Of a stretch of 64,000 nucleotides of DNA, positions 3,301 to 57,901 are shown in pieces (the stretch's first letter is position 1; each line of letters starts with the position of its first letter). The notes beneath the pieces are model-generated. The model worked only from the letters and a program-made list of their open reading frames with translations, made no database searches and had not been told where the DNA came from. The stretch is from Sialis fuliginosa. Taxonomy: Eukaryota > Arthropoda > Insecta > Megaloptera > Sialidae. Made by a program: the position numbers and the translations under genes. The DNA lies in the NCBI GenBank assembly GCA_961205875.1, contig OY540810.1:28396001-28460000 (forward strand). Direction: 5' to 3'.

Positions 3301-6300
3301 GCAAAAAATAATGACAACTAAAAAAAATAGAGCAGAAGGCGCAAAAGTGCAGATTAGTGTAATAAATTTTATGAAAATAGAAATAAAAAGAATAAAATAA
3401 AAATAAAAAGGAAAAAATAAAATAAAAAAAGAGGTGTTTATTTTCATGTCAGGGTTTACAAGAACTAAAATCTGGTCACCCTAGCCAGCAAGCACTTTGA
3501 AATAAGGTTTCTAACCTATCTGATAGTTCTCCCTTAGTTTCATGAAATGTTTGACAATTTTCGCGGACACGTGGTATGTAAACACCAACAATATTAAAAC
3601 AGCGGCGATATTATGAAAATTATTTTGTACGGTCAGAGTCGCCAACTGTGTTACGAGTACAATACGTTGAAGAATTACTGCTCTAAATTTCATAGTTAAT
3701 CCAACTTTACTAGCTCCTTTATAATACCGGACATAAGACTAATTTTTTGTCGATTGTTTGCAAATTGATTTTGGCTTCTACTTACCACGGTTGCTTAAAG
3801 CAAAATTATATATGATAATTTTTTACCTTATAAAATTGATCATAACTGTAATTGTTTTTTAGAATTGACGTAATAACTTATTAACAATGTATTTTATGAT
3901 TTTCAGAAACACTGAGGAAGTATCCTGTACTAGACATTATGATAAAGGTCTGTACAAAAAAATACCAAATACCAGATACGGGCATAAAATTAGAAGAAGG
4001 AACATATGTGATAATACCTACAAAAGCCTTACATACAGATCCAAAACATTTCCCAAATCCACACAAATTTGATCCTGATAGGTTCCTTCCCGAAAATAAG
4101 AAATGGAATCCATACAGCTATTTACCATTTAGTAAAGGTCCCAGAAATTGTATAGGTAATTTAAAAAAATACTAGTAATGGACTAGTGTCACTTAAGTAA
4201 TTTTAGATCAGAGTTGGTTCCAAAAATATTGAACTTTAAAATAATACTAATAAAAATGTTTTAGTTACTATTTTGCAATATTTTTTTATAATTATTTTGG
4301 CTAGTGAGAATTCAATAAAGTGTGATCAAATAAATAAATAAAATAAATATTAATAATAAATAACGATAAAATATATGGAGATGTTTCGTGTGTAGCAGAT
4401 CAGAACTAAGGCCAAAATTGTGTGGATAAAGCATTGGAATCTTAGAGAACGGTGTCCGTCACCGCTACGACTTTACTAAATCTATTATATGCGATTCCAA
4501 TACAAGTGGCACTTTACAATCCGTCATAACGCAACGGCGTTTCTAAAAAAAAAACGCGTTCCTGGCACCTTAGAGAAACGGATGACACGACGTCGCTCAT
4601 TCAAAGCTGTACAAATCAATTAGACTGTGACTTTACAAAAAACGGTGACCTCCGAATCCGAAAGATTTGATTTTATGTAAATTTTTTGCACTCGATAACC
4701 TGTCGTAATTATTCAATACACAATTCATTATACATTTTTAGATTAGTAACTAATAACTAATATCACAATACAATTATTTTTATTATTTACATATTTAATT
4801 TTATTAGAAAAGAGTAATTATACACAACAAATACATGCCTTAGTTTATTACCTATACCATTTATTTAATTTAAATTGTTGATTTAATTATATCGATCAAC
4901 ATTACTACAAACTTCGATTTTTCTATTCAATATTTTATTTAAAAAAATATTAATTTTAAATTCTTATATACCTACCTAATAAAACCATTGTAACACGCAA
5001 AAGTACAAAATCTTTACAGCTGATTCAACTGTGTTGCGTGTATGTTGTATTGTGATCATATATACCAAATATACCTATATAGTCAACCGAGAGAGAAGTT
5101 CAGATACAACACTCTATAGTGCAGACGTGGTGCAGACAATCTTTTCTCACTCGCACAGAAATAGTCGCGCGCGCGTCTTTCTGTGCATACTCGTGTTAAC
5201 CATTCCATGCCAAAACATTACGAGCATATTTTCTGATTAATAAGTTCTTTTTTTCTGATTAATAAGGCGAATTGAAATATATATATATATAATTGTGATA
5301 GTCGTTCTTTTTTATTTTAATTAAATCTGAAATTAACAATTAATCAATTGTTAATTGTGATAATTCGCAATTACAAATAACTATATTATTAATCGTTAGT
5401 TTTAAATAAGAAATGCAGTTTATTTGTTAATTTTTATTTGTTTTTACGATTGAATGCCCAACTCTGATATGTATGATGTACTCGTATGTATGTATATGAT
5501 GTGTATAATACATATATGTACAAAAATACCGATATGTTCGAAGCTTGATACGTTATTTTGAAATTTTATATAATTGTACTGTGAATTTCACATTTTAAAA
5601 ATTACAAGTGCGACCATTATGTAAAATAATATTTAACCTTGTACATAAAGCTTACATTGCAAATTAACATTAACAGAACTAGATTTATTAGAAAATAGAT
5701 TAATTCGAAATAAAATATATGTACAATTGTAATTTAATAAAAAATCTAGCCTGTATAAAACATTACATCGTTTATATTCAATTTTTAAGTCATATTTAAT
5801 AAAAAGTAAACTAAGAACGTCGAAATATAAATTATATACTATACTTTGTTTTTAATTAATTGTTTTTTCAAACAATATAAATAATAATATGAATAATAAT
5901 TACAAGCCAAATCATGGAAACACGAAATAAATTTTTTCTGTATTATTTATTTGGTGCACTACATGTATTATTTATTTGGTCGACACTCACGTACTGCCAG
6001 CCGGGTTTGTTTATAAAAATTCACAATAGATATTTTTCTCAAGGCAAAAAAAAACTGTGGCGGACTCCGTCGAAACGGTGACGGATTCCGCTACCGTCCG
6101 TAGTTTCTAAGATTCCAATGCTTAAAAATTATTATTTTTGAGCTTAGATTGTACAGCTTGGGGAGAGGTTTCGAATGTTCATACGCGTATTTTTTATTAT
6201 TCGTTATAGGAAGGGACGGGGGGGATATTTGGACTAAAATAGATTAAATTTTGTATAATAATCTATTTTCAAGTAATAAAAAACCGCTTAAGTTACATAT

Positions 6301-13097: not shown

Positions 13098-16000
13098 TTA
13101 GGCTTTTTTAATACCCATTAGTGCTTCAGCAACACCTAAGAAATAAACCATTTGCGCGATTCCAAACAAGGGAGCTATGACGATCATCCTGCAAGCACCT
13201 CCTTTGAAAAATGCTCGAATTCCTTCATGTTTATATGTTTTCCTATAAGTATATAATTATATATAAAAACCATTTGATATTCATTACACTTACAAGAGAA
13301 CCTTTTCAAGTGAAAAAATCGTATCGAATTCAAATTTTGTATATAGCTAGAGGAGGTCAAGGGTAGTAAGAAAAAAATTATTTTAGCTGCGGTAAAACGG
13401 TTCAAGGCGGTGATATACCCTTCTGAAAATGTGAAAAATAATCGTACATTTCAAATAACTTTGAAACTAATGAAGATATAAAAAAATCTATAGTACAAAT
13501 TTTTCATAATTTTTTATACAGTCGAAATTCAAAAACGTGAAACCGTTCACCCCCACCTCCCACCCACCTCATTATTTTTTACGATTTTTTTTTTATTTAC
13601 TCAATTTAATTGTATTGTACAATAGTAATTATTACGTTAGCGATAAGAAAAGTTTGACTATAATTAAAAAGTTACCAATTTAAAAGAATATTTACATTTC
13701 AAGAGATCTAGAAACCAGTAAAAAGATTTTTAGCGCAAATTAGTCAAGAAAATAGCCGGTTAAAAATTGCCAATTGATACGTTTGTTTCTTGCATTAATT
13801 CAATGAAAAATTACTTTATGTTACTGTTATAATATTTAATCCGTGCTTCAGTTTAAAATATTTCCCCACCTCTGGGCTAGATAGACCGACAGGCAGCAGA
13901 CACACTAATCAACGGTTTCACGTTTTCGAATTTCTATTGTTGCCATTCGAACGAGTACAAAAAATTATGAAAATTTTGTATTATACATATTTTTATATCT
14001 TTATTAGGTTCAAAGTTATTTGAAAAATACGATTATTTTATACATTTTCATAGAGGTATTTCATCCCCTTAAACCATTTTACCGGACGAAATTGTATACA
14101 CGAAAATTCCGGAATCAACTGAAAATATTAGTACGTTATTTATTTTTCAATTGTACTTACACAAACGCATCTGTTATCCCCGTGAAGGACATTTCTCCCT
14201 CAACTTTACTCAAGGCCTGAAGACGCGTTTTGACGACGTCAAACGGATTGACAGTCAAAGCTGCTAGAGATCCGGCGGCGCATCCTGATAGAAAAGAGCA
14301 CCAAAATACTGCTTCGCCTGGAACAAAACGACAAAGTATAATAACAAAACGCGATTATCCCACTTTCTTCAAATACATGTTCATTCAACAATATCGAAAT
14401 TAATGATACTTTACCTGACCCATCATTTCTTCTTGGTCCCAACCCATTTAGAGTAGCAAATAACGGAAAATACACAACAGAAAATGACACATCTCTCAGC
14501 ATTGTTGCCGCCGTACCTTTATAAAGACCAATAATACCATGGCTTCTGAATAATTGTAGAGCTATTTTTGTCGCAGTCACTTTAGGGACGGTTTTACCAG
14601 CTGGAATTTAAAAAAACAATTTTTTAATGCACTTTTTAAAATATACCATTAAAATTTAAATGTGTTATATAAATGTATAAACAAAATGGTATAATATGGA
14701 AGTACAGTGAAACTTCTCAAACCAATCGTACTTTCTACACGATCCATTCCTTAAACGACCAGTATTTAATGGAGTTATTTATATTTTTGATATAACTTTT
14801 TAGTGACGCATACAGTATGCAGGCAATTGCTTAAGGCCCCAAGGCGACGCAAAAGGGTGCCCCAAACTTGGCTGAAGAGTAATAAAATGGTCTTCAGTTA
14901 TTGAATGAAATTTTTTTAATTAAAAAAAATATTTTTTTTATTCTTCCTGAGGCCCCCGACTATCATAACACGCCGCTGATCATAACCACAAATGGCCATT
15001 TTATTTTAACCGTAGCTGGTTGGTTTGAAAAAGTTTTTACTAATATAATTTATAAAAATTAATATTTTATTTTATTTTATTTTTTGCTGAAAATACAAAA
15101 CACATCTTTAATGACAACCTTGTTGAGCTGCTGCTGCGATTCTCCCAGCATCCTGCATCTGTATCTTCAATAGTTCCATAGGTGTTGTGATCACTATTTG
15201 ACAAAAACCCGCCATTCCTCCGGCAGCCATCTGCCGTGTGATTGGCAAAGAGCTATAAGCGAATTATAGTTCAAATGACAAATCAATTAAGACGTAATTT
15301 TCATCATAAAAGAATGGTGCATAAGTCGCATTATATAATAGAAAAAATATCTATTGAAATTTATTTTATTCGACTATTGACTATTGACTTCAATGTCAAT
15401 TTTTCGTAAACAAATTCACAGAGTCGTTTTTATATAGTATAATAATAATAAATCTTCAACAATAGTTACTAAGAAGACAAAACAAAGATCAATATGAGAC
15501 TAAAACTGTTTAATAGAGTTTTCCTTAAATTTTTCTTCTCGATACTTCCCTTTTAAAATCAAACACAATAAATATAAGTGGAGCATGATTTCCATTTATC
15601 AAAAAAATATAATAGTTCAGACTTTAGTGACATTGTTAGCGAAGAAGACCAAACCGTCTAAAATTTTGACCGAGACGATAAAAACTGTATTTATAAGTAT
15701 CTTCAAGAGTCTCGGATTTATAGCATTACAATTAAAGAATACATGATATCAATAATTTTATGGTCTCGGTTAGGAGTCATTCATAAATTACGTCACACGT
15801 TGTGTGGCATGGTGTGACAAAGGGGGTAGGAGTCACAAGCTTCGTGACGTCGCATCTAAAAATCAAAACAATGAATTTTATATAAATTCTTAGGAGCAAA
15901 AATTTGAGGAAAAATTACCATGTTATTAGTAACTCGAGACCGGTGAAGAGATTTTAAAAAATTTTCAAACTTTTTATTAAACAAAAATATTTTATATAAA

Positions 16001-23277: not shown

Positions 23278-26200
23278 TTAGGCTGATGCAGGCGATTTTA
23301 TTTTTTGAATTTCTATATGGTGGGGAGCCATATCAAGCTTCATCAATGGGCGCTGAAACAAATAAATAATAATAACCATATATGCCAAAATAATAATTAA
23401 TAACTTATATAAAAATATAACATATACAGGCTGTCGTAACTTCGAAGGAACAGTTATTTCTTCGAAAACAAAAGCTAAAATAAATGTAATTTTTCATGGT
23501 TGTTTGCCCAATAGATATAAATTACGCATCTGATTCGAAAACAGAGTCCTCACAAAGAAAGAGATAGAACTTAATAAGTGTCTAAACTTTATTTAAACAT
23601 GAGTGTAAGTTTATAGGATAAACGATGTAACCTTGACAATACTCTATCTCTCTCAGTCCATACTTTATGTCTAGGGTTTACCCTACTTTTGAATATAGGT
23701 ATGATTCTTTTTGTGACGTTGAACAGGACCCACAGCAATAAACGAGATAACCTTGACAATACTCTATCTCTTTCAGTCCATATTTTATGTCTAAGGTTTG
23801 CCCTACTTTTGAATATAGGTATGATTATTTTTGTGGCGTTGAATATGACCCACAGCAAGAGCAACTGGTTTTTTTTTTCAAATTGCACTTGATTATTTTT
23901 TACACATCCTAGGAAAGCATATTTTATGCTGAATATAATTGTCCGTATGAAATATTTTCTCCAATTTTTATAAAAAATGATGTCGATTAAAAATAAATTC
24001 GAAATAAAATAATAGTAGAGTATTTAAAAAAAATACAGTCATTCTTCCTGCCGCCCCTGTTAAACGCCACAAAAAAATACGTCATGAAAAAAGGGCCAAA
24101 AACCATTAAAAATAACCTTTGTTGCAATCTTTAAATATAGCCATTTACGAAAAACTACCTGGTCCTTGAAAGTTTAGACACTCTGTATAAGGTATAAGGG
24201 AGTTCCGAATAATCTGAAGTACCTAATCCTATAACATATTAGGTAAATTAGAAATACTAAAAAAAAGTTCTATGATGTAATTCTATAATAATAAATATAA
24301 TAATCAAATATAATAGTGTCCTAGCATAAAAAAATAAAAACCAAGTTCTCTAAACATATAATAGCTGTCTAAAGGAACCATACGGTTATTTATCAGTATA
24401 ACTTCGAAAAAAAATATTTGGAAAATATCAAAATTAATTAAAATTAAAAATAAAACACTTTTCTTGGTACAAATTAAATGTTTTTATATAAATTACTTTA
24501 CTTTATAACACAAAATTAGTTAAGATTCCTCTACTCTTTCCGTTTTACACACAGGTAGGTTAGAGATTTAAAAATAGTTTTATTACCTGGCATCATAGAT
24601 GTTTTTAAAACCTACAAATGGATATGTACTAAACTGTCTAAATATTCGTAGTTGATTATTTATTTTAATTCTAACATTTGAAAGTTGAAAAACTAAATAG
24701 TTTTTTTTTAAATGTGTTAAATTAAAATTAGCATGTGATTTAAGTTCGTAGTAGTAATTCCAATTTTTTAAAAAGTAGATGATAATCATTCATATTTAAA
24801 AACATAAATAAAAACATGGATAAATAAAAGCATTATATCTTATTTGACGACATACTTTGGAATTATAATTAAATCGCAAAAACATCGAAATAGTCAATAA
24901 TTTCGATTATATATTTTATTACAGTCCTTTCAGACCCTTAAAATTGAATAGAAAACGTAAATTCTTTTGTAAGTTTTATGCCAGGAAAGAAATATTGAAT
25001 AAGTGCCAAATAACTGCCAATATGTTAAATAATAGGTTGTTAACAGAGGGCGCGACGTGGACGTTAACGTGTTAATAAAATACACACCTGGCTGTAAGCA
25101 TCAATAATATCATCGGGACTCTCTGGTTCCCTGAGGAACTTCCTGGGCTTAATAAATCTCCTGATCAAAGGTGATAACAGTGTCTTGTCCACGTCTCTAG
25201 GATCATTCCAATCGCATGCTCGCGCGACCAGCAGTCCCACAAATATGGTTACCATCGTGCCGAGCATCGTGTACCACATGTATGATATTTGGAATAATGC
25301 GAATACTTCTCCTCTGGAAAAATGTTTTATTATTAGTTAATGTTAGTCTTAAAAATAAAGACTTAAGAATGACTACAAATTACTATAGTTAGTAAAAAAC
25401 ATTATTAGAACATTTATAAAGGTAACATTTAAAATAGTTATTGATATAATATAATATATATATTAATTTTTTTTTAATATTCCGTACAAACAGAATCGTA
25501 GTTAGAGGTGCTGCACCCCCGGCGAAAACCGTAAAAAGCATCCCCCAGTGTTATTGAAGACTTTCTTTTTTTCCGTTATTATGTTAATTTTAACGCCCTA
25601 AAACTAACTTTTGCGCCCTCCAAGAATAAATGAAAACCTTTTTTAATTCTCACGTCACTTTTTATGTCTCATAAAACTCTTATATCTCATTCTACAACCC
25701 CCCACCCTGGACCTTTCACCCTGACGGGAGAGCCGGTTTCGCCAACCTCTAAGTACGCCACTGCATATAAAGATACATTCTAAAACTAAAATGGATAACC
25801 CTTCATTTAATGCATCTATCACTTTTAAATCATATTTTTCTTTCAAATGATGAAATGTCTACTATATTTCAAAATATATCAATTCTTATATTATAATTTA
25901 TTCATTATTGATACAAAAATGTTATTATAATTTTTTTATTTCACGTAAATTCGTCTTTATATGTTATTATGAAACTTACTCTGGTTCTTCCGATGTTGTT
26001 CCGTTCATCAGAAGATGCTCCAGCTGCAGATTCATGACCGGGGGTGAAGTAGGAGTGAATATATAGTCACATCCCTCCGTACTTACGGGTTTAGGCTGGA
26101 ATTTGATATGACCGCTAGTTATAGCATGCTGAGTGTTAACGATCAACCATGTCATGAAAGAAAGGCCGCTTATTCCACCAATTAAAGCTCCCTGCAAAAT

Positions 26201-29200
26201 AAAAATAAGACAAATTAAAGAAAATTTTTATAAGAATGTGAAATGTTTTTTTAAGACTCTGTAAGTTTAGTCTGTTTAAATTTTAACTAAACTAACAAAA
26301 ATTAGAAATGTGCCATATACATATGTAGCTAAAAATATACTAAAGTTTTTTATAAGTACGTATATATGGAGTGTTAAAATGTAGGTCTTCATGTTATTTA
26401 CTAACTTCATTTTTTTCTAATTCAAAAAAGATACCAGTAAGAGACTCAAAACAGCCATTTTACTTCCTGGCCAATATCAATAGTACTGGTTCAAAAATTC
26501 TGAACAATTCCTACAGAACCTTAATAGCTTGCACCCGAATATGCATTGGCTATTTAGTACGGGGTGGGGTTTTTCTGTGATTTTAATAGAAATACAAGTA
26601 AAAAGTTTAATGTTTTATTTTTATTGAAGATTTTCAGTGATTTTTTATTATAAAACTCTTACCTTTGTACCAATCCAGGGTAGCATCAGTCCCATTATAA
26701 ATATTCCTAGGGATGGTCCATTTGTAATAGCACTGAGACTCATTGATAACTAAAATTTAAAAAAATGTATACATTATGATTCATTTTAATGCATATTTAA
26801 ATCAGTCAAGCACTTGATAAGTAAATTTGTATATTTCAGTAAATACAAATTGTTAAATACCTCACTTATTTATAAAAAATAGAACCATTTTGAATCATCT
26901 ACTTTAGTCGCTCTGGTTTTTCATTCAATTTCTATTTAATAAATAAATATTATATTGTAATCCAGTTTTTTACCTGTAAAACTTGTCCCATTTTCTCAAC
27001 GACAAACGCCAAAGCCACTGCCGATATTCCTATAACTACTACCACAGTTTTCATCAGCATATCAGTCTGAGTTGCAGTCAACTTTTTGTTTGAGTAAGGT
27101 TTCCAGAAGTCCTCCAAGACTATGGCAGCCATTGAGTTGAGGCCTGTGGATAAGGAACTCAAAGCTGCACTGAAAACGCCAGCTACAAATAGGCCTGGCA
27201 GACCTGGGAAGTTTCCTAAAGTCTTCATTACCAATAGTGGAAGAAGTTGGTCTTTAGCTTTTGCTAACTAAAAAATATTTGCATTTAATTATAAATATAT
27301 CACCTACAATGTACATGCCATTTATGTTAAGAGTGTTGTATATGTAAATGGAATTCGGTACGTAAAAAATAGAACATTGAACAGTGGTAAATGTAATGTT
27401 AAAAAACTGACAGTATTTAAAATGTAACGAAAAATGGGACTGTCCCGAAAAATGCGGAACGAATGGTCAGCCTATGTTTAGGTCATTTTTATCTGTTTAT
27501 AAATTCGACCAATTTTATTATGATACTTTTCATAACAGTCCATGAAGATATTTTGGCGAAATGAAAAAAATATTTTTAAGAACCCCGTGGAAAATTAAAA
27601 TTACAACTAATTATTCTTTACTTGTTCATCGTTTTACCTTTTTATAATTACAGACTAATTGTCTATAAATTTTTTATTGATACTAATTTATATTCTATTA
27701 CATTAGTAATTAATAATATTTACTTTAATAATTCAAAATACCTTTGTCGTTAATGGATCACAATCATGGAATGTAGCATAGATCAAAAGACCCGAATAAC
27801 AGCAACAAATGAGTATTGAAGTAATTCCAAGAATAAATATTATAAGCGCCCTAAAACCGTATTAAATTAATTATAGTTTATACCACCACCCTATTATCAA
27901 ATCATCTTAAAAGTAAAATAAATAGAAAGAAAATACATTTGCCATTACCTACATTACCATTTCTACCAAACCAAGAAGAAAATGTGCAGTGCATGCAAAA
28001 AGTGAACTTTTTAATACAAAAGTTAATAAAGTAAACATGATATAAACATATTAAATATTAATCATAGCTAGTATAGTACAGTGGTAAACTACATATTAAT
28101 TGTCAAAAAGGTGCTTTTCATTTAGGGTGACCATACCTATAATAGATTTTTTTTCAAACGTATTTTATTGCACCCTCTCCAGAAATAAACGATATTTGCA
28201 TCCTTTAAAACCTTATTTATTATAGGACGAAGAAAGCACCACATCCCCCTTGTGAGATGGTTAGAAACTCATTTATCTACATTTGTTATCAAAATAGGTA
28301 CCTTATATTTTATCAGAAATTTAATTTAGGGTCAATTGGTAAATTGGTTGTATTGCATTTACAACAAAATATTAAACTGTTTCTCAATGTCAGTGATTTT
28401 AATTATTACTGGTACCTTCAAAAAAGAACAAGATATTTTATGTCAAGAAGCCAAAAGATCCTTTTCTCAGTCTTATCTTGTTTAGTTGAACGAAGCTGAA
28501 TTAAATTTTGATGATACGAGATTGATACGTTACCAGTTATATTTAGAAGTCTCTTCAAGAGAATTAATTTTGAGAGTGTCAATAATTACTAATTTAACAT
28601 TATTCTAGGTTTCTTGAATACTGTAAGACGAGTGTTGCACGCTCAGTCTGGTATCAGTTCAGTCCACGGCCTTCATCGTAAATAGACTGATGGCAAACTG
28701 ATGAATGATATTACACGATCAGTCGAGACTGACATCAGTCTTCTCGAGAACGCTGTTAAAACAAGATGTCTTCGGAAAAACGATGGATTGTTATAAGGAA
28801 AAAGTTTGTATTGCAATAATACTAGCATTGGCTACAGAAAAACGTGTTAAAAGCGAAGAATGGACTAAAGTATGGCTACAAATAAGAGATCATTGTGTAC
28901 ACACATTTGAATTTATTAAATGAAATAAGAGACTCGAAGAGGACTACGAAAATTATTATTGAATGAAAAATGCCTGTTTTGATAAATTGTTGAAAATAGT
29001 TAAGCCATACTTGTGTCAGTCGTATCGAGACTGATGAAAAATATTTAAATATTAAAAAAAAATCCGTCAGTTCAGTCGATCAATCTGCCAGTCAATGCAT
29101 TACACGATCAGTTTGACGTCAGTTTGATATCAATCATAGACTGACCTGATGCCAAACTGAGCGTGTAACACCCGTTAAAAGAATATTTGAATGTATAAAA

Positions 29201-32200
29201 GTAAGATATATATAAGTTGAAACTCGCTGTTGCAAAGTCCCAAATCGAAATGTGTCTCGACCCGTCACGTTTGAAACCTTATTGGGGGGGGGATTCAGCT
29301 TTAAATATCAAATGAGTATTTGAGGTCACCCTACTTCCAAGTATACCCAATAAATGATATTCACCATCAATGTACAAGCATGCACAATGCACATTCTTTT
29401 TACTTACGCTTGGGCATGTTTTCTCGTAGGCAATGACAAATATCTTTGTTGCATCGTTTGGTCGATGGCCGTGTACAGCCAACAAAAAAACCCGCCGAAT
29501 ATCTGCGACCACAGAATGTGTCGCTTGGTCACGTCAAACGTCAAACTGAAAAATAACAACTTACTGTGTTGTGTGTTTTCTAGATGGTAATGCTAGGTAT
29601 CTTTGTAGCATGGATTGGTTGCATGCGTTTGTTTGTAGCCAAAAAAAGAATCCGCCAAATACAAGACCCCAAATTGTGTGCCTTGTTCTTGGATCAAAAT
29701 TTAAGCTAGAAAAGTCCAATTGGTTAAATTTTGTTTTGAATTATTGTTATTGTATATGAAAGAATACAATAAAAAACGCTATCTACATAATAAAAACTAT
29801 TATTTTTATCATATAAAAATCTAAATATATGTATAAGTCAGATTTTTTAAGTAGTATAAATCTAACTTATATAATTTTAATCAATTTAATTTATAAAAAA
29901 AATTGTGTAGGTACTAGTTAAATCAGAAATGAACGGAAAAAAATAATACAAATATTTATTATTGGACTTATAGGTACCACTTTTAAAAATAATGACTCAT
30001 AAATATATAAGTATTTTAAAATTGCTGACTCTAAAAATCTTCTGTGCATATTTGTCGTAAAAAATTAAAATTTAAAAATATTAGTATTTTAAATTTTGTT
30101 TATAAAATATTATAGTTACTTGTTGTGTTGCAGTATATTCGTAAATGATATAGTAGAGGGAATACTTACTCTGGTGGTTCAATCCTACCACTCTCCATGT
30201 TCCTATTCCAAACAACAGAAACACCTCCAACATCGTAAGTGCCCTTGACCATGATGAGGATGATTGATCCAAACATCGCTATAGTTTGAATTACATCAGT
30301 CCAAATAACAGCTTTGATACCTCCCTAGAACAGAAGTAAATAAATTATTTCAAAAGAAGAATTGGAAATACAAACTTTAAAGCTTTCGCAGTAGTTTTTC
30401 AATGTTTTTAAATTTGTTTCGCTATACTCGTGTATTTCAGTAAGCATATCCAAAGAATTTGTTTAATTCAAAATGTTACCAAAATTGAAGAGCATAAAAA
30501 AAACTTTTTAGATAGCGAGCCAAATGAAATAGTTTTGAATCAAGATTGAACCGTCCAGTTTTTTCGTACATATTTTTTTTCATTTTATCTCAACAAGTTA
30601 AAAAAAGTCGCAGAAAGAATTTTGAAACTGAACATTTAAGCTTTAAAATGGTACCAAGAAAAATTATATACATCACATTTTTCAAAACCCCATACATACT
30701 ATCAAAAGAAAAAAAAATCTGACTTTCTTATAACTTTGTAGAAATTGAGATTTAGGAAATAAAAATAGAAATTTCGAATTAAAAAACGCTTTGCTCTTAA
30801 GCTTTGGCTGATCTCCGTCGCCGCTTCGACCTTGCAAATCTATTATATGTGATTCAATACAAGTGGCATGTTAGCTGCGTCGAAACGGCGCTGAGTTTTA
30901 ACGCAGCTAACACATAATAGACAAGCGATGACGGAGATCGTTTCTGTAAAGTGCCGAGACTTTATTTTGTTAATTTTTACCAAAAAACTGAAGATATTTT
31001 ATTCGTATTTTTTATTGAATATAAAATTAATTTAAATTAAACTAAAATTACTACCACGTAAATGTAAGTTTATATTGCAAATATCTTATTTAAAATACAA
31101 GTAAAAATACAATGGTTTCACGGGTCAGGGGTTGCCAACCGCTGGATTACAACCATAAACTAGGAATCAAGATATCGTCGCGGTTGGTAGAAACGTTAAG
31201 AATATTCGATTTAAGAACTCATTGCTCATACTTACAACACATGTGTAGAAAATGCAAACTAGACAAACGGCAGGTGTAATGATATGTATATTTATACCGG
31301 TAACTGAAAACAAAACAAAAATATTTGTAATTCACGTATCTATGTATTTTAAGTAACAAATAAGATATTAAAGAGCCCGCGCACACTACAGACTTTAGAT
31401 TAGGAAATACTATGGATACAATAACAACCAATACTAGTTCGTATACGAAACTGTTACCAAAACTTAATGGTGGCTATCTTTCATCAGTTGTCATTTCCAT
31501 GAAAAAATATCAAAGGCGTCAGTTGAAAATTTATAATATGCAAATATGCTTTAAATTACAATTGAATTTGTTCTGTAAGAGAGACAATGGTTACAAACAG
31601 ACATTTCTCTATTATTGATTTATCACTTAAATACTTTTAAACACAATATAAAATATTTATTAATAATTAATTGTATAATTTCAAACAATTGATATTTATT
31701 TTAAAATCCGAATGATACACCAATGACTTGTGGAGCGATATGGTAACAACGCTAGGTAATGTGCTATGAATCCTATATCTTTCCTTGTCTCAACTACAGA
31801 CTTTTCGTCGACCGATAGTTTAAGCGATTTGGCAGTAGGTATGGAGATATATGAAAGTGCACACTTACCCATTAAAAATCGACCGAATAAATAATCAAAA
31901 AGGTTGGGTCAACTATCGGTCGACTGGCAATCAGTATGACGTGCTATATGTATGTGCACCTACCACCAACATAGTATCGTACCGAAAGGGAGTATTTACC
32001 CTGGGCGGGAATTTGTTAAGGACCGTAAATTTAAGGTAGCATTAAAAAAAAGGTCATCAAAATTACTAGAAAGCGTAATTAATTATGGATTGCCTGCAGG
32101 AAATTCGAAAAAAAGGTATTCAATTTTCATATTTAGCATATTTAGCATACAGAGCAAATTTGCCATCTGCCCCAGCTGGCAGAAAACTACATTACACCAC

Positions 32201-34014
32201 TACACCAACAAAACTATTCAGTCTGCAGCTCGAACCCGATAAAACTATCTGCCGATTAAAAATCTGTAGTATGCACGGGCTCTAAACGTCCTAATTAATG
32301 CATGGCGAAAAGTTCGTCAAACCACTAAATATCTTATAATTTACCTTGATTAAACGCTAAAGCAGGTACAAAAATTACGATTGGTAACCAAAATATCTGA
32401 AACAAATAAAAATTATATTTTCATCGTATTCTAAATTGTACAGAGCGATTGAATTTTAACTGTAGGAGATTTTTTTGATAAAATTATATATTTTAAATAT
32501 GTATATACTCACAATGCCTATTGAAAATAAAATTGAACCAAAAAGTCTTAACTTTTTATCGAATCGTCTTTCCAAGTACTAAAAATAAAAATAAATATAA
32601 ATGAAATGGTAAAGTGACATTACAAATTTATTAATCAACAGTGGTTGGTGGTTTAACTTTGAAGGAAGTATTATTACATATTAACCAAGAAAGTTAGGCC
32701 ACAAGTCACCGCTTCTGTTAAGCCGCGTTTACACTATGTAGCAAAACCTGCTATATAACAAATGTTATATAACTTTTGCTATAAGTACGAAAACGGAAAA
32801 ATGTCAAATGTTACATGTAGCAGTTTTTGGTGCTACATATAGCAAAATCTGCTACATATAGCAAGATTTATGTTTTCCATCCAGAGTAGGTAAAGATCAA
32901 AGAAAAATAAGCTACATGTAACTTTTGCTATATGTAGCAAGTATTACAAGTAGTTTTGGTTCTCTAGCATCTGCTACATGTAGCAGTTTCTATCATTCGA
33001 GTTCAAGCGGTGATATTTATATGTCTTATGTGTCTATGTCTACAACGGTTTTTTCATTTTTAATAAAGCTTTCATAATGGAAAAATCATGCAAGGTCATC
33101 TGCATTTAAGTCTTTCAGCAAATCACTTCCACTGTATTTTTCTCTAGCTAATAACGACGGCCGAACCCAAAACCTACGTTTCCTTCTATGACATGCCAAA
33201 AATATCGTAATAGCTGCCGCTAGCATTAAGTCTTTCCTCCTCGACATCTTCAATCAGACTGGATGTTATATAACTTTTGCTACATGTAACACAGTATCAT
33301 TTGAGTACAATTTGAAAAATATAGCAAATGTTTTATAACATTTGCTATATATAGCACTGCTACATATAGCAAATGTTATATAGCAGATTTTACTACATAG
33401 TGTAAATGCGGCTTTAGAAATAATATTAAAAATCTGAAATAAAAAATACCTCATATGTTGAAATTAGTTTTAAATCATGAAATACTGGTAAAAAACAGGT
33501 TCCTTTAACAATTCCCATTATGTATATTCCTATCATAATGTACATGTATTGCATCCCATAAATATACATCTCTGTCGGCGTCCCCAATAACGTTATACCA
33601 GATATAAAACTAGAAGAAGAATATACGTTATTAATACGTTATACAGTGCTAGCTAACTTCAGAGGAAACAGTATAAAAGAACGAGTTTAAGCGAGCATTA
33701 ATCGTTCGGTGAATATTGGGTAGCCAAAGAACAAATATTCGGTGATTATGGTACATGAAAATCATAATAATCAGTTACCTCCTCTGAAGTTAGAACAAAT
33801 AAACGTACCTTGCAATCAATGACATAGCCACAGGAAATACTTTCATTGTTCTGCCACCAACTAAATATTCTTGTGAATTTTTTGATGCGTGAAAGAATCC
33901 AAAATAAATACCAATTATTATACATATTAGTAACATCAACAGAAATACAATGTAGTCGAAAACAGAAAATGTTGTCACCATTCCACCGACTTCGTTAACA
34001 ATATCTGTAGCCAT
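23278..34014 (-). CDS. SLC5 sodium/solute symporter (SMVT/SMCT-like), alternative exons
   Basis: Plasma-membrane Na+-coupled symporter of the SLC5 family, nearest by eye to multivitamin/monocarboxylate transporters. Exons in transcript order: 33809-34014 (ATG), 33450-33609, 32513-32578, 32345-32396, 31236-31303, 30170-30324, then either 29565-29705 (A) or 29408-29545 (B), 27742-27850, 26974-27267, 26663-26749, 25980-26191, 25088-25313, 23278-23352 (TAA). Every junction is GT-AG and phase-consistent: 616 residues with A, 615 with B. Family signatures: YLVGGRTM, LLGTPTEMYIYG, YLERRF, GGIKAVIWTD, FGGFF...QRYL, LPGLFVAGVFSAALSSLSTGLNS; about 13 membrane segments. The exact substrate cannot be assigned. 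Introns hold several MITEs. A poly(A) signal follows the stop. Confidence 0.93.
23426..24187. repeat. Inverted-end element in the last SLC5 intron
   Basis: Left end TACAGGCTGTCGTAACTTCG is imperfectly inverted at the right (TACAGAGTGTCTAAACTTTC read from the other strand). It contains the 120-bp tandem duplication at 23621-23860. No intact coding. Confidence 0.5.
23621..23860. repeat. Two-copy 120-bp tandem repeat
   Basis: 23621-23740 and 23741-23860 align without gaps with roughly ten substitutions. Shared strings include CCTTGACAATACTCTATCTC and CCTACTTTTGAATATAGGTA. The mirror-image open frames here are artefacts of the repeat. Confidence 0.85.
25495..25765. repeat. GC-rich dispersed repeat, CAGTGGCGTA end
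   Basis: The minus strand starts CAGTGGCGTACTTAGAGGTT; the opposite end has TTAGAGGTGCTGCACCCCC. It is related to 820-1015. It sits in an SLC5 intron. Probably a transposon remnant. Confidence 0.5.
28627..29175. mobile_element. Harbinger-derived element with transposase remnant
   Basis: 549 bp. Ends ACGAGTGTTGCACGCTCAGT and, inverted, ACGGGTGTTACACGCTCAGT, with TAA flanks (28624-28626 and 29176-29178). Inside, the + strand frame from ATG 28783 to TGA 28923 (46 residues) has the pattern W-x-x-x-W-L-x-x-R seen at the start of PIF/Harbinger transposases. The catalytic domain is gone. Lies in an SLC5 intron. Confidence 0.7.
29408..29545 (-). other. SLC5 alternative exon B
   Basis: 138 nt; acceptor ATTTTTCAG, donor AAGC|GTAAGT, same phases as exon A. 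It encodes LTFDVTKRHILW, then IFGGFFCWLYTAIDQTM, QQRYLSLPTRKHAQ. It aligns with exon A along its whole length, with one residue fewer in the membrane helix (LYTAIDQ against LQTNACNQ). The open frame and both splice sites are intact, so it is not a decayed duplicate. Confidence 0.88.
29565..29705 (-). other. SLC5 alternative exon A
   Basis: 141 nt; acceptor TTTTCTAG, donor ACA|GTAAGT. It begins one base into a codon and ends two bases into one. It encodes a segment starting LNFDPRTRHTIW, then VFGGFFFWLQTNACNQSM, LQRYLALPSRKHTT. It is the upstream member of a tandem homologous pair. Its donor is 19 nt from the acceptor of exon B. Confidence 0.88.
30797..30963. mobile_element. Palindromic MITE, second copy of the 16877 family
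   Basis: Shares ATCTCCGTCGCCGCTTCGA, AATCTATTATATGTGATTCA and the GCTGCGTCGAAAC core with 16877-17055. The left arm is shortened relative to the right. In an SLC5 intron. Confidence 0.65.
31373..32282. mobile_element. 910 bp DNA transposon relic, GAGCCCG ends
   Basis: Ends GAGCCCGCGCACACTACAGA and, inverted, GAGCCCGTGCATACTACAGA, with TAAA on both sides. Frames in the interior are fragmented and show no recognised domain. In an SLC5 intron. Confidence 0.65.
32721..33413. mobile_element. Harbinger-derived element rich in GCTACATGTAGC
   Basis: 693 bp. Ends AGCCGCGTTTACACTATGTA and, inverted, AGCCGCATTTACACTATGTA, with TTA target duplication (32718-32720 and 33414-33416). The subterminal zones are packed with short palindromes of the type TGCTACATGTAGCA. 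It carries the transposase-start remnant at 33086-33247. In an SLC5 intron. Confidence 0.8.
33086..33247 (-). pseudogene. Harbinger transposase N-terminal remnant
   Basis: 53-residue frame from ATG 33247 to TGA 33086-33088. Residues MSRRKDLMLAAA are followed by RRKRRFWVRPSLLARE, matching the R-x-x-x-x-W-V-R-P motif that opens PIF/Harbinger transposases. The DDE catalytic part is absent, so it is an internally deleted element. Confidence 0.65.
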
Positions 34015-47383: not shown

Positions 47384-50300
47384 TTATTTTTTCCTTGGCT
47401 GCAATCCTAAATGAAAACCTTTCTCAGCTGTTACTTTCCCGAATACTCTCATTTGTTTTAATGGGACTTGAGTTTTCTTCGTCACCACAATATTAAAGTC
47501 TTTCAATAAGTTAGCTATCGCCAATTTACCTTCCAATAGTACAAACCGAAAACCTAAAAACGAATAAAATTTTATATTAACAATACTCACGCATGACACC
47601 CGTTTAGAAGTAAAATAAGGTCAGTTGGGGTATCTGGGCCATGATTTTACAACGTGAGCGGGTAATTTCTGACTTTATACTTGCTTGAGAACCACTAATA
47701 AGTTATATTAAAATCTAAAATATTTTTTATTTATAATACAATATGCAATCTTAAAATATATAATAGTAGAATATAATTTTCTTTACATTTTTATTGAAAA
47801 AAAAAAAACAAAAAAAACAGTCTGATGGGTCCAGTTACCTCTATAAATTGGGGTAACTGGACCATAAGGGTCTTGGTTTCATACAAATTATTGTTATTTG
47901 AATTGGAGTAAGTGGGCCTGTTGGCAAACATGTAAACCCCTTAAAAAAATTACAACAAGTCATTTGAACCACACCATAGTCGAGTTATCGACGATGCAAG
48001 AGAATTCCTACATAACGAATGGGTATGTAATTAATTCAAATTTTTGAATAACACAACTTTTATTGAGGAACAAGAGGTGCAATTATAAGTACAAGTAAAT
48101 ATTATATAGATAGTTAACAAAATGTTCAATAAGTCACTCAAATTATTAGTGAAGCTGATCATATCTTTGAATCTAGCAGAGCTGCTTTTAAGGGGCTTTG
48201 ACAGCTTTCTTACTACATCTTTTCTGGCAACGTAGGATTCTTCTTCTGTTTCCACAAACTTCATTATTTGGTAATGACGTTTTAAAAACATGACATTATA
48301 CCCAGTATTCGTTTGATTTGTCACTTTTGCTATGTACAACCTGAAATTTTCTTTTGATTTTCCATAAACTTTTACAACACAATATTTATATAACTGGGCT
48401 CGAGGCGGACCCAGATACCCCAAGCATATGGCCCACTTACCCCATTTTTGAAAGATTTTGGGGGTAACTGGGCCATCCCCTCAAGCTTATAACCTAAAAG
48501 AGAACACGTACTAGTAGTAACATTTTAAGGTTCTATTATGCTTCTAATTTATGCTAAATCAACTGTTATGTTGATAATACTTACAGTGAACCTGTAGATA
48601 TTTTATAAAATCAAGTTGACACCACGTTGTTTTGGAAAACTTGCACTACAAAATTCAAAAAATTGCTAGACGAAAGCCACAACACTTAGAGACATAAAAC
48701 TAGTTGTTGAAGGGAGACGTCATTGTCCTTCAATGTTGCCAACCGCTTGAAATGAAATTACCCTCACAAATTACATAGAAAAAACCCATGGCCCAGTTAC
48801 CCCCTGGGCCCAGATACCCCAACTGACCTTAAATGAAGTATAAAATAAGCCATCGAGAAAATAAATATTATATTTTCATTAACTTTTCGTAATTGGTTTT
48901 CACGAAAGCACTAATTAATTATAAGTAGATACCTACTTATAATCATGCCTACTTTACCTATGCACACTCTAGGACCAACTCCAAATGGCATGTATGTCAT
49001 TGGGTTGATATTGGGCTTATTTTCGTCACTGAACCTTTCAGGATCAAACTTATAAGGATCTGAGAAATATTTAGGGTCCTTGTGCAATCCTTCGATGGGA
49101 ATCGCGATAGTAGTTCCTTTTTCAATGGTCACTTCTTCACCGTCGCTACATGTGTAAGTGAATGTCTTCGTACAAATTCTATCAACCATACTAGATAGTG
49201 TGTTTTTTCTTAACGATTCTACAGCAAAGAAATTTAAACGATTAAAATGTAAAAGTTTAATAAAACACATTAAAATGCATATGAAATAAGTACCAGAGAA
49301 AATCATATCCATATATTTCATTTTCTGGACTCCCTCGTAAGTGAACTGTCCGTTATTTTCTTCCCACGTTGCATCAACTTCATCCTGGAGCCTTTTCTGA
49401 ATGTCAGGATTCACAGCAAGCTCATGAAGTATAAAGCACATTGCTATAGCTGTGTTTTCAAAACCAGCGACGAAAAATATAATCGCTTGTGCTATGATGT
49501 CTTCGTTTGTCAATTCTAAAAATGTAAAGACGTTTGTAGGCAGGGCCGTAACTACCACCGGGGCAGCCGGGGCAGTGCCCCGGGGCCCCCGAGTATAGGG
49601 GGCCCCCGAACAAGGAATGTACTTTTTTTTACGAAATCGAATTAAAAAAAGTTTTGAGTTAAACTCATTTTGATTCAACACGGACAAATTTTTTCAAAAA
49701 CAAATACCCAAAAAAAAACTATTTTCAATACATTTATAGAATTATCTTCAGTGCCATCGCATAGTACATAAAAATCTACAAAAAAAATGTTCCTCTAGCA
49801 TTTGTTGCCCACAAGATATTTTTTATTTTTTAATGTGTTTTTTAGCCGTTTTGATTTGGAACTTGTCACAATTACTTATTTATAATCATAAGGAATATCT
49901 TTTCTCAAAATTTTATTAAAATCGCTTTACTATTGGTCGTTGTAAAACAAAGTACTTTACGTTCGTAATAAAATTATGAGATTTTAAAAAATTTAGTTTT
50001 ATAGGGAAATTCATAACAAATTTTAAAATGATTTTTTTATTTTTGCAATCCGGCCAATAGAATTAATTTTTAAAAAAAACGTGCACGAAAAACCATAAAA
50101 ATGATAGTTTTTTCAAAAAGGTACAAAAAATTTCGCTAATATGACTCCACTATAAATCGAATTTTATGCAGCTCGATATGAGAAATTATTGTTTGTTTTT
50201 TTCAAAAAAATTATTTACTGGTTTAATTGTCATTGTTTACAAAAAATATTAATAATTAAAATTTGAAAGCAATCACATTTTTATTAAAAAACTTATTTTT

Positions 50301-51851
50301 TTCAAAAATAGTCACATACTTCAAAAGTGTTTAAAAAAAATTTATAAGGGGGGCCCCCTGGATCACTTGCTGCCCCGGGGCCCCCGAGCCTCTAGTTACG
50401 GCCCTGTTTGTAGGTATCTAAATTGTAGTGAAATTGTTGACATAATGTTAATGTAAATTATAATACTAAGGATTCTTCCAATTATACTCCTTTTTGATCC
50501 TGTTCGATTACATATATAGCAAATTTTAATGTTTATAAGTGAATATTTTAGAAATGATAAATAAATAAAAATCAAATATATTAAATTTCATTAATACCAG
50601 CTTTTTCAGTGTATTTTTCTTCAGAAGCATCTTCAGATGACGCAAAATGCGATTCATTATCTTCTTCATCTTCTTCATGTTTCAATGAGCCTTTCTTTGC
50701 TTCCAGAAGTAGATGGATCATGTCAGGTCGGATAATCCCTAATGATTCTCTTGTTTTGATTGCTTCTAAAACGATATTACTGAAGTAGTTTGTTATATAT
50801 TTTGAGAATAAACCTTCGCCAAATATCTAGAATAAAGTGTTCCCAATTAATAAATTGTTTTTGCGGTTAATTCTTTAGAATTCACAAGAATAATAATCAA
50901 TAAAAGTGAGAATTGATTTAATGAAGTAAAAATGAAATTATTATTTTCTGTTTTTAGATACATAGAACAAAATAACAATAATAGTATATCACCTTCATAA
51001 TAAAAGGCACTATATTAACTGCTATAAATCTCCATGATTTGATATCGGATATCTCGAGGCCCATCTTGTAAAAATCGTTGTTTTTATCTTTCAACGAGTT
51101 GCATTTTATTCCAAAAGCACAAGTAGCAATAACATCATTGGTGTAACAGGTCAGGACATCCTTCATATCAACTTCGACGATATTATTTGGCCAGTTTTTA
51201 CTGTCCTCTAATAAGTAATGATTCAGTTCTTTACCACATTCTGACATGAATTGAAACATTCCCCTCATTTTGCGTCCAGTAAACGCTGGACTTAATGTTG
51301 CACGCATTTTTTTCCATTTTTGACCTAAAAAATAGTTAAATATTTTTTTGTAATTTTTATTAATTGAATTTTGTCAATCAACGAAAATATTACCTGTTAA
51401 TGCAAACACATTTTTTGATAGTAGAGGATCCAAATCTTTCTTGAAAAACTGAGGTGAATGATCCACAAAATGGTCAAACTCCTTTATAGTAATAGCCTTT
51501 AATAACTCTAAATCTTTCACAAGTAAATTCGGGTGGGAGAATAAGAAAAACCCATAATATCTGAAATAAAATAATTATATCATTACTATTTACTTTAATG
51601 TGTTTATTAAATCTAATTTTATTTGAATTAAGAAATATATTTTGTATCTACTTGTCATTTGGGAAAGCATTGTAAATATCTTTAACTTCATCGTTCATGC
51701 ACTTGTAATGTAAAATTGACCCCGCCATGTTACCCAGAAATGGTACAGGAGTAATATAAGGTACACCTCTTTCCTTCCAGTATTGCATAGGTTTCCATAC
51801 ATAATAGTAAATGGCGAGACAAATTACCAACAGTCCAATGTAGAAGAACAT
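47384..51851 (-). CDS. Cytochrome P450, CYP9-like, paralog 1
   Basis: ER-bound monooxygenase of the CYP3 clan. Seven exons in transcript order: 51652-51851 (ATG), 51394-51560, 50993-51324, 50598-50826, 49294-49515, 48958-49218, 47384-47553 (TAA). All GT-AG, 1581 nt = 526 residues, full length. N-terminal anchor MFFYIGLLVICLAIYYYVW, proline hinge PYITPVPFLGN, helix C WKKMR, I-helix AGFENT (Asn where the catalytic Thr is usual), ExxR as ESLR, FDPERF, haem loop FGVGPRVCIG with the Cys ligand. An acidic loop (EEDEEDNE) lies before the I-helix. The DPKYFSDPYKFDPERF run and FGVGPR loop favour CYP9. Intron 4 holds a hAT element and intron 6 a pogo-like element. Substrate unknown. Confidence 0.92.
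47618..48829. mobile_element. Pogo-like DNA transposon in CYP9 paralog 1, intron 6
   Basis: 1212 bp. Ends AGGTCAGTTGGGGTATCTGG and its exact inverse, flanked by TA (47616-47617 and 48830-48831). The motif GGCCCAGTTACCCC recurs inside. Paralog 2 has the empty site AAAATAGATG at the same intron position. TA target and size suggest the Tc1/mariner-pogo superfamily; deletion derivative. Confidence 0.85.
48031..48423 (-). pseudogene. C-terminal remnant of a transposase-like ORF
   Basis: About 90 residues of plausible coding within the pogo-like element: KYCVVKVYGKSKENFRLYIA, then MKFVETEEESYVARKDVV and SARFKDMISF. It resembles the small C-terminal region found in insect pogo/jerky-type transposase ORFs, a call from memory of the pattern. 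The DDE region is not present. Confidence 0.5.
49541..50406. mobile_element. hAT element (non-autonomous) in CYP9 paralog 1, intron 4
   Basis: 866 bp. Ends CAGGGCCGTAACTA and TAGTTACGGCCCTG, with perfect 8-bp target duplication TTTGTAGG (49533-49540 and 50407-50414). GC-rich subterminal blocks such as GCCCCGGGGCCCCCGAG are inverted at the two ends. No transposase frame. Paralog 2 has the intact empty site near 60103-60111. Confidence 0.92.
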
Positions 51852-52154
51852 GATTTTCTATCAAAAATAAATTAAGAATAATTAAAATCAAGTAAATTAC
51901 AATAATTGATATTAAATAAAATGTACATACTACAATAATGGTAAACCTCCAAACACTTCACAATAATTACTCTAATTTTTTATCTTATTTTATCAGAAAG
52001 ATAAGAAAAGATAATACAGTGTGTTCACCGGAAATAGTGTACTTATTTGTTTAGTCGCCATTTTGGTAAATATTTATTTTGGTAGTTCATATTTGGCAAT
52101 CATCAGGGACGTATTTTTAAATTTTACGCCCTGAGTGAATATTATCGGCCGCCG

Positions 52155-54363
52155 CACAGTGGGTCTAAATCGTACTTTTTTGCGCGAAATTTCGCTTCAA
52201 GCCAATTTTCAACCAATTTTAATAAAGTCAGTGGCATTTGAAAGGTAAATAGTTGTAGTTTCTGAAAATTACCCCAAGAATAGTCAATTCACCCTCTTAA
52301 TTATTGTTTCATCCCCTTAAATCTGAAAATTCGATTAAACGATAAATTCATAAATTAATAAATCGAATAAGATAATATATTCTGCACAAATATAAATATC
52401 TATTTGTTAGTACTATTATATAGTATGTGTAAACATGTGTGAACATATTTTAATATATACAGGGTGAGTCATAAGTTCGTATTTCTTCGATATCTCCTCT
52501 GTTAATAATTAGAGAAAAATTTTAATTTTGAATGATATTATAAGTAATAATACACATCTAAACTTATATTAAAATATATAGTGTGACCCCGAAAAAGGTG
52601 TATCATTACAGGGTGAGTTGATAGTGCGTGTATCTTCAATATCTCCTCTCTTTTACAAGATACAAAAAAAATTCAAATATTAGATAATACTAAAAGTATA
52701 AATGTACATTATAAGAATGTATTGAAATATACAGTGTGGCCCCGAAATAAGGTGTATCACAAATATAATGTTTTTTTAAATGGGATGACCCATTTATTTC
52801 TACCTTATGTAACTCTTGTTTAGAAGATCTATACAGTGGTACAATATTTTTTAAAAACATTGAGGGGAAGGGGTATGATATAATTTTTTTTAATTGGCGT
52901 TTTCAAACATTGTTTTGAAAAATCATTTTCGTTTTGGTGTGGCATTAGTTTAACCTAGACACCACTAGTAATCCATTAGAAATTTGTTTTATACAAGGTG
53001 CTCCTGAAAAAACTACAATTATTCAAAAATTATATGTTACAAAACTATTTTTTAATGGAACAAAATATTTTTTTGTCATTAAGTATGTAATATTCGGTAC
53101 ACTACAACTTTTCACGGCAGGTAAATCCTGCACCTAAAATAAATAAATATACTAAAAACGCTTATTACTTACATTACATGAAACATTTATGAAAAAAAAA
53201 CTATTAGATTTTATGCTTAAAAATAAACACTTCGTGTCTTAAAAAATTTTTCTCTAAACTTGCAGAATTTAGACTAAATTTTTGAAAAAACTTTAAAAAT
53301 CTCTATTGAATTAAAAACTTATAAAAGGTTCTTTAAAAATATCAAACAAAAATTGTTTTGTTTAGTTTAAACAACAATTGTACAATATGAAATATGTTTA
53401 TCTTAAAATTGACCTCCAAATGCCCTTGAAGCCCTTCATTAGACATAAATAAATAATTTTTGAATATTTCCAATTTTTTTCAGGGACACCTTGTATAAAA
53501 CAATTAAATTTCAAATGGATTACAAGCGGTGTTGAGGTTAAGCTAATGCCACACCAAAACACTAGAATATATCTTCAAAATTAAGCCCTAAATGATTTAT
53601 TAAAACAATGTTTGAAAACGCCAATTAAAAAAAATTATATCATACCCCTTCCCCTCAATGTTTTTAAAAAATATTGTACCACTGTATAGATCTTCTAAAC
53701 AAGAGTTACATAAGGTAGAAATAAATTGGTCATCCCATTTAAAAATACATTATATTTGTGATACAACTTATTTCGGGGCCACACTGTATATTTCAATACA
53801 TTCTTATAATGTACATTTATACTTTTAGTATTATCTAATATTTGAATTTTTTCTGTATCTTGTAAAAGAGAGGAGATATCGAAGATACACGCACTATCAA
53901 CTCACCCTGTAATGATACACCTTTTTCGGGGTCACACTATATATTTTAATATAAGTTTAGATGTGTATTATTACTTATAATATCATTCAAAATTAAAATT
54001 TTTCTCTAATTATTAACAGAGGAGATATCGAAGAAATACGAACTTATGACTCACCCTGTATATATTAAAATATGTTCACACATGTTTACACATACTATAT
54101 AATAGTACTAACAAATAGATATTTATATTTGTGCAGAATATATTATCTTATTCGATTTATTAATTTATGAATTTATCGTTTAATCGAATTTTCAGATTTA
54201 AGGGGATGAAACAATAATTAAGAGGGTGAATTGACTATTCTTGGGGTAATTTTCATAAACTACAACTATTTACCTTTCAAATGCCACTGACTTTATTAAA
54301 ATTGGTTGAAAATTGGCTTGAAGCGAAATTTCGCGCAAAAAAGTACGATTTAGACCCACTGTG
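52155..54363. repeat. 2.2 kb foldback with ~1 kb inverted arms
   Basis: Starts CACAGTGGGTCTAAATCGTA and ends with its exact inverse, flanked by CGCCG on both sides (52150-52154 and 54364-54368). The outer ~300 bp of the arms are nearly identical. Mid-arms carry paired ACAGGGTGAGT motifs (52457 and 54058; 52608 and 53914). The centre near 53220-53300 is more diverged. It sits about 300 bp upstream of the CYP9 paralog 1 start codon. No coding. Confidence 0.9.
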
Positions 54364-57101: not shown

Positions 57102-57346
57102 ACATATCCATATATTTCATTTTCTGGACACCCTCAATGAGGGTCCCTCATACGTTAACTGTTCGTTATTTTCTTCCAACGTGGCATCAACCTCATCCTG
57201 GAGTCTATTCTGAATGTCAGGATTGACAGCAAGTTCATGAAGAACAAAGCACATCGCTGTAGCTGTGTTTTCAAAACCAGTCACGAAGAATATCATAGTT
57301 TTTTTATTAACAAATGAAGACATCATAATGTCTTCATTTGTTAATT
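57102..57346 (-). pseudogene. Fragment of a third CYP9-like P450 (exon 5)
   Basis: Matches exon 5 of the two intact paralogs, including GFENTATAMCFVLHELAVNP and the retained acceptor (TTCTAG). It is broken by an inserted inverted copy of its own start (palindrome 57306-57345) and by a ~14-base insertion near 57131-57146 that shifts the frame before the end of the exon. No neighbouring exon 4 or 6 in place. Non-functional. Confidence 0.85.
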
Positions 57347-57695
57347 CTAGAAAATAAGGAATGTTTGCATGTATTAGAAAAATAATTGACTTTATACAAT
57401 TGTTATTACCTAGGGTGTTTCAAAAAGAACACAGCCTAGAAGATAAGATAGTAGAACTCTGGCATAATATATGTCAGATTTTACTATTGTACCAAAAGTT
57501 AACCGCCTCTAGCGATTGAAATGAACTTATGATTTTCCAAAGATGTATTTTTATTTGATTGATGACACTCCAACTAGTGATAATAATTTTCTGAGATTTT
57601 TTTGGTGAACGAATTTATAATTGAGACTGGGCTTATTCGATTCTGAACAGATCCAGTATCATGAAATATTGATAGAGATATTGCTTACATTTCGG

Positions 57696-57755
57696 CATGT
57701 CCTCATATCGGTTATTTTAAGGCCCATCTTGTAAAAATCACTGTTTTTATCTTTG
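57696..57755 (-). pseudogene. Fragment of a third CYP9-like P450 (exon 3)
   Basis: About 60 bp matching the 3' half of exon 3 (around AAGGCCCATCTTGTAAAAAT on the + strand) with substitutions. It runs straight into sequence matching the 3' flank of the CYP9 genes at about 57756. The junction marks a deletion or unequal-exchange breakpoint. Confidence 0.75.
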
Positions 57756-57901
57756 TATTATTTTATAAAATAAAAACTTTTTTTGTCCCCCCCCCCCCTA
57801 TAAAAAATAAAATTAAAGTTAAATAAAATTATTATTTTTTATTATTTCAATTCAATATTTAAAACATTCTAAATCTACATGAGATATTTTTGCAGCAACG
57901 T

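Follow-up and report, generated by a model that had tools for sequence, protein, structure and literature searches.

The window analysed (the whole stretch of DNA, 64 kb) contains an SLC5-type gene on the minus strand that extends from 34014 to ~25064. The gene comprises 12 coding exons, with exon 7 present twice (exons 7A and 7B, hereafter A and B) and with GT/AG at each internal junction. Its features are as follows.

33809..34014, minus strand: exon 1, coding, begins at the ATG at 34014
33450..33609, minus strand: exon 2
32513..32578, minus strand: exon 3
32345..32396, minus strand: exon 4
31236..31303, minus strand: exon 5
30170..30324, minus strand: exon 6 (E6), 155 nt, donor GTAAGT, the upstream partner common to A and B
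29565..29705, minus strand: exon 7A, 141 nt, phase 2/2, LNFDPRTRHTIWGLVFGGFFFWLQTNACNQSMLQRYLALPSRKHTTQ
29546..29564, minus strand: spacer, 19 nt, GTAAGTTGTTATTTTTCAG, which doubles as the donor of A and the acceptor of B
29408..29545, minus strand: exon 7B, 138 nt, phase 2/2, LTFDVTKRHILWSQIFGGFFCWLYTAIDQTMQQRYLSLPTRKHAQA
27742..27850, minus strand: exon 8 (E8), 109 nt, the downstream partner common to A and B
26974..27267, minus strand: exon 9
26663..26749, minus strand: exon 10
25980..26191, minus strand: exon 11
25064..25313, minus strand: exon 12, stop at 25064, AATAAA at 24920

Exon 12 is probably the terminal exon, and a potential donor after 25088 could lead to a further exon instead. 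Up to that possible donor the open frame encodes 592 residues for E6-A-E8 and 591 for E6-B-E8; reading through it adds seven residues before the stop at 25064. Pfam profile SSF (PF00474) matches both isoforms over its full length, with 154 bits for isoform A and 148.9 for isoform B against a cut-off of 22.8, and TIGR00813 gives 296.1 bits against a cut-off of 184 (isoform B only). By these profile criteria, the gene is a member of the SLC5 / sodium:solute symporter family. The nearest solved relatives of isoform A by sequence are SMCT1 (379.9 bits, compared with 367.7 for isoform B), NIS (327.2 bits) and SMVT (310.7 bits). A tblastn search with isoform A over 64 kb rejects a second SLC5 gene or additional exon copies in the window; the match that it returned elsewhere (13909-14145, plus strand, isoform A residues 65-140, 24% identity, 28.1 bits, E 0.041) is probably due to chance.

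Repeats and other coding sequences occur within and around the gene. Intron 2 contains an inverted-repeat element (32720-33414) with 51-nt arms (32720-32770 and 33364-33414) that are 88% complementary; it has many internal GCTACATGTAGC-like repeats and a MITE-like look. A second inverted-repeat element, with 37-nt arms that are 86% complementary, occupies 28628-29175, within the intron that separates exon B from exon 8. Downstream of the gene, an ORF at 23589-24023 has two copies of a short direct repeat, LLLWVxFNxTKxIIPIFKSR...RHKxWTERDRVLSRL (by eye). Two similar gene copies that apparently represent a recent duplication (48911-51857 and 57117-62142, from the ORF list, by eye) are ones that we take to be cytochrome P450-like, as we do further exons at 331-4175. 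Near-identical ORFs in opposite orientation, ~700 nt apart, at 52617-52902 and 53616-53901 (by eye) may represent a transposon's long inverted repeats.

Exon A has acceptor TTTTCTAG and exon B has acceptor TTTTTCAG; both have the donor GTAAGT, and both share the same phases (2 in, 2 out) with AG/GT sites on each. The original prediction had described two exons of 141 and 138 nt, 19 nt apart, with these acceptors and donors and with equal phases, and each of these particulars, coordinates included, is borne out, as is the dual role of the spacer as A's donor and B's acceptor at once. The whole-gene frame stays open with either E6-A-E8 or E6-B-E8. It is also kept when both exons are skipped or, as had been foreseen, when A is joined to B; if the 19-nt spacer is left unspliced, CAG TAA places a stop directly after A. 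The available text of PMC3228551 recognizes mutually exclusive exons by homology, similar length and conservation of splice sites and frame; A and B are homologous neighbouring internal exons of similar length, with compatible sites and a common frame.

The two exons are versions of the same segment, as had been proposed. At the protein level 26/44 residues are identical with E 3e-19, which rules out chance likeness, and at the DNA level 63/88 positions are identical in the best stretch. When A and B are compared with the 64 kb by tblastn, their mutual match scores 57.8 bits and everything else ≤18.5 bits, with no third copy of exon 7 within the 64-kb window. The Nei-Gojobori comparison gives pS 0.85 (~25/29 silent sites differ) and pN 0.25 (26/106 replacement sites), and differences at codon positions 1/2/3 number 14/11/26; the codon alignment on which these values rest has its gap after B residue 25, with five other placements giving similar results. 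A simple neutral change up to the observed number of differences was simulated in 20,000 runs each from A and B, of which 3,063 (from A) and 1,976 (from B) were free of stops. Identity of at least 26/45 without a stop arose in 0 runs from either exon; one run from A reached 26 identities, but with a stop. Saturation of silent sites with conservation of replacement sites implies that the duplication is old and that both copies were long under selection, and prolonged neutrality of B is ruled out by the substitution pattern and the simulation. Judged from these patterns, A and B have been under protein-level selection during most of a long period, a result compatible with one copy having fallen out of use recently. 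Third-position GC differs strongly between A (0.28) and B (0.60), although they lie 19 nt apart.

By comparison with SGLT1 and NIS, exon 7 encodes helix M6, which includes the substrate site and inner gate. According to the available text of PMC9616851, M6 of SGLT1 has T287 and W291 in contact with the ligand of the sugar site, and its Y290 and D294 belong to the inner gate; the SGLT1 numbering from L288 to Q295 was verified on the chain. In NIS, W255, L256, Y259, N262, Q263 and Q265 are assigned to a modelled ion pocket (PMC7034854, text available in part). The sole length change between A and B falls here, as originally predicted, with LQTNACNQ in A and LYTAIDQ, one residue shorter, in B. 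The accompanying claim that the pair differs exactly there was too strong; 19/45 aligned residues differ, spread along the entire exon. The further suggestion of altered substrate or ion coupling is upheld as to place, because the switched helix holds the equivalents of SGLT1 T287/W291 and Y290/D294 and NIS W255/Y259; that B differs in gating, coupling or substrate is what we infer from that location.

Counted from GG to the motif QR, A matches SMCT1 and NIS in length in the alignments shown. A aligns without gaps at M6 to the three chains shown, and B aligns with a one-residue gap to four eukaryotic chains; a fifth chain, a bacterial symporter, aligns irregularly. A contig scan with isoform A as query matched 569 stretches and yielded 565 relatives, from which the best 80 were taken; a viral contig scan gave four pattern matches and 0 relatives. 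The best 80 of the 565 relatives are bacterial, with best segments 26-31% identical, and are useful only for counts of M6 length and residues. Forty-four of them, mostly Fibrobacter, share a residue at several variable columns, and the 80 contain 56 distinct segments; having been picked with isoform A and being mostly Fibrobacter, they yield counts that reflect few independent lineages. Among these best 80 of 565, the GG-to-QR length equals that of A in 75 and is one residue longer in five; none is shorter, whereas B is one shorter.

The inner-gate position (NIS N262 / SGLT1 D294, equated through the D/N-Q-x-x-x-Q-R motif that they share) is Asn in A and Asp in B. SMCT1, NIS and SMVT (SLC5A8, A5 and A6) have Asn there, so isoform A resembles them in Asn-Gln and also has an M6 as long as that of the chains shown, unlike isoform B, which has one M6 residue fewer and Asp-Gln. 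In the best 80 of 565 bacterial relatives the residue is Asp in 79 and Asn in one. Q263, Q267 and R268 (NIS numbering) are kept by A and B and are invariant in those 80. B shares with SGLT1 (SLC5A1) the Asp at the D294 place. Its Tyr falls on Y290 if B is read without gaps from the right; BLAST, HMMER and MAFFT set the gap to the right of this Tyr and align it with W289, not Y290. The SGLT-like gate of B is no more than a lead. Measured over the exon, A outscores B against 73 of the best 80 of 565 relatives, B outscores A against six and one is tied, and mean identities over 47 columns are 13.4 for B and 11.6 for A. Scores with SGLT1 are 57.3-58.0 bits for A and 56.6-57.8 for B, and those with SGLT2 are 70.3 for A and 68.2-68.3 for B; B does not exceed A against either chain, and these comparisons give no evidence of sugar transport.

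Reported minima for splicing in flies are ~35 nt between the 5' splice site and the branch point, and 15 nt between the branch point and the 3' splice site (PMC5762160, as far as its text is available), and a 50-nt threshold is in use for human exon pairs in the accessible parts of PMC5740500 and PMC7969005. Steric interference is expected where A's donor is <50 nt from B's branch point; the whole spacer measures 19 nt. Counted back from the 3' end of the spacer, its adenines lie at 16, 15, 8 and 1 nt, and none meets the donor distance of 35 nt together with the acceptor distance of 15 nt. Given these positions, a branch point for B that is at least 15 nt from the acceptor would lie in A's donor or upstream. 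Joining of A to B should be ruled out by this topology besides crowding. Exon anatomy, past selection and a spacer below the fly minima (PMC5762160, in the text available) together lend strong support to the mutually exclusive use originally predicted, and A and B are probably spliced in this way. The steric limit put forward with that prediction would account for exclusivity; it does not account for which exon is chosen, and B's acceptor has no good branch site.

Exclusivity might instead arise mainly from competing RNA structures or a tissue-specific repressor, in which case the short spacer would be a bystander. Such structures have been reported for other fly genes, one of them the SLC5 gene CG42235, in its 3' variable regions (PMC9013439, available in part). 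The 19-nt spacer offers scant room for a selector sequence, however, and one local fold leaves A's donor mostly unpaired (0.78 versus a mean of 0.40). This explanation is unlikely, although it overlaps with steric exclusion and the odds on the two are not exclusive.

Branch sites were scored with a heuristic YTNAY matrix on sites 10-60 nt upstream only. The best branch-like pentamer for B scores 2.62 and lies inside exon A, 42 nt away; this is the lowest value of the 12 acceptors in the gene, and the other 11 score from 4.10 to 6.20. A's candidate, TTAAC, lies 18 nt upstream and scores 5.84. Competing AGs occur 14 and 18 nt ahead of B's acceptor AG, nearer to the branch in exon A, and pyrimidine content gives B no advantage (9/14 at the acceptors of both A and B). 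B's acceptor may be poor on these sequence features. The weak branch site can be read as a sign that A is the default and B is regulated, and it likewise provides the strongest case that B might be dying or dead, a former alternative exon that fell out of use for want of a branch site at its acceptor, so that A alone is spliced. The AGs nearer to the branch and the one-residue deletion, found in 0/80 relatives (best 80 of 565), point in the same direction, and profile scores below those of A would suit a copy whose decay is recent. Against this, B retains an open frame and intact splice sites and phases, its silent sites are saturated with replacement sites conserved, and it keeps the invariant Q, Q and R and has Asp at a position where 79/80 of those relatives have it. 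Loss of B is accordingly improbable, somewhat more so than control by RNA structure or a repressor.

An assembly artefact that placed the exon of a paralog beside A is very improbable, given that phases and splice sites are compatible on either side and that B's donor is in frame with exon 8. A LeuT-fold transporter should not tolerate M6 twice, which argues against a protein with the segment in duplicate. Such a product, from A and B in series with the 19 nt removed as an ultra-short intron, is hardly credible even with an open joined frame, because 19 nt is far under the ~50 nt fly minimum (PMC5762160, in its available text) and no spacer adenine satisfies the 35-nt and 15-nt distances together.

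Under mutually exclusive splicing, exon 7 of the SLC5 gene would have been duplicated in tandem long ago and its copies would now be alternatives. U1 at A's donor and U2/U2AF at B's acceptor would compete for the same 19 nt. E6-A-E8 would result where U1 wins, and E6-B-E8, with A skipped, where B's acceptor wins. A branch point of B, whether 2-3 nt into A's donor or ahead of A's cut (in exon A or beyond), would be unable to serve A's cut. The choice would exchange core helix M6 of the transporter. Isoform A would carry the family M6 length and the Asn-Gln of SMCT/NIS/SMVT type, and isoform B would be shorter by one residue in the stretch that separates the substrate-site Trp from the inner gate, with Asp-Gln as in SGLT1. 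A is the expected default and B would be regulated, with altered gating, coupling or substrate. A stronger version is doubtful. It would make the 19 nt a two-way switch, with A's donor hexamer or exon A as B's branch region and a binary choice of U1 or U2 that needs no other factor; A would then be SMCT/NIS-like, and B would combine a shortened M6 with an inner gate that is acidic as in SGLT (Asp, perhaps also Tyr) and changed coupling or substrate. This version appears weakened by the alignments, which do not put B's Tyr at the gate Tyr of SGLT1.

An exon pair of alpha-tropomyosin is reportedly kept apart by steric interference. That steric hindrance can enforce mutually exclusive use is established for human OGDH exons 4a/4b (available text of PMC7969005), and 57 human clusters (9%) fall under 50 nt according to the accessible part of PMC5740500. 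Like A and B, OGDH 4a/4b are tandem homologous exons with a donor-branch distance of less than ~50 nt that are not joined to each other. The OGDH intron is 118-131 nt long in birds and mammals, and in humans its branch points lie within it, 25-41 nt past the donor, whereas the whole A/B intron has 19 nt (OGDH values from the same part of PMC7969005). B's branch point would have to sit in A's donor or upstream, unlike that of OGDH.

Drosophila kumpel (CG42235) belongs to the SLC5A genes and has five predicted isoforms (PMC8790523, seen in partial text). Like the present gene, it is an insect SLC5 gene with duplicated coding exons used alternatively, as described in the available portions of PMC8790523, PMC9013439 and PMC3228551. 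In kumpel whole 3' exon groups are alternative and, in those portions, only the first two exons are common to all isoforms, whereas here a single internal exon is duplicated. No duplicated 3' exon groups of the CG42235 type were found by the isoform A tblastn over 64 kb, which recovers each other exon once and exon 7 twice. Among the literature matches listed, a set that does not cover supplements and RefSeq isoform annotations, there is no internal mutually exclusive SLC5 pair, and PMC3303723 and PMC3923563 contain none of the words symporter, transporter and SLC in their main text as available. The mechanism appears to be known already in kind, and this case appears to be undescribed among the matches listed.

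The distinctive traits of the A/B pair are its 19-nt spacing and the helix that is exchanged. If mutually exclusive use is true, the locus would be a compact natural test of the minimum donor-acceptor distance that allows alternate use. It would also represent a natural domain-swap in the substrate/gate helix of an SLC5 transporter. The two proteins would differ only in ~46 residues, and how M6 relates to coupling or selectivity could then be tested directly within one gene.
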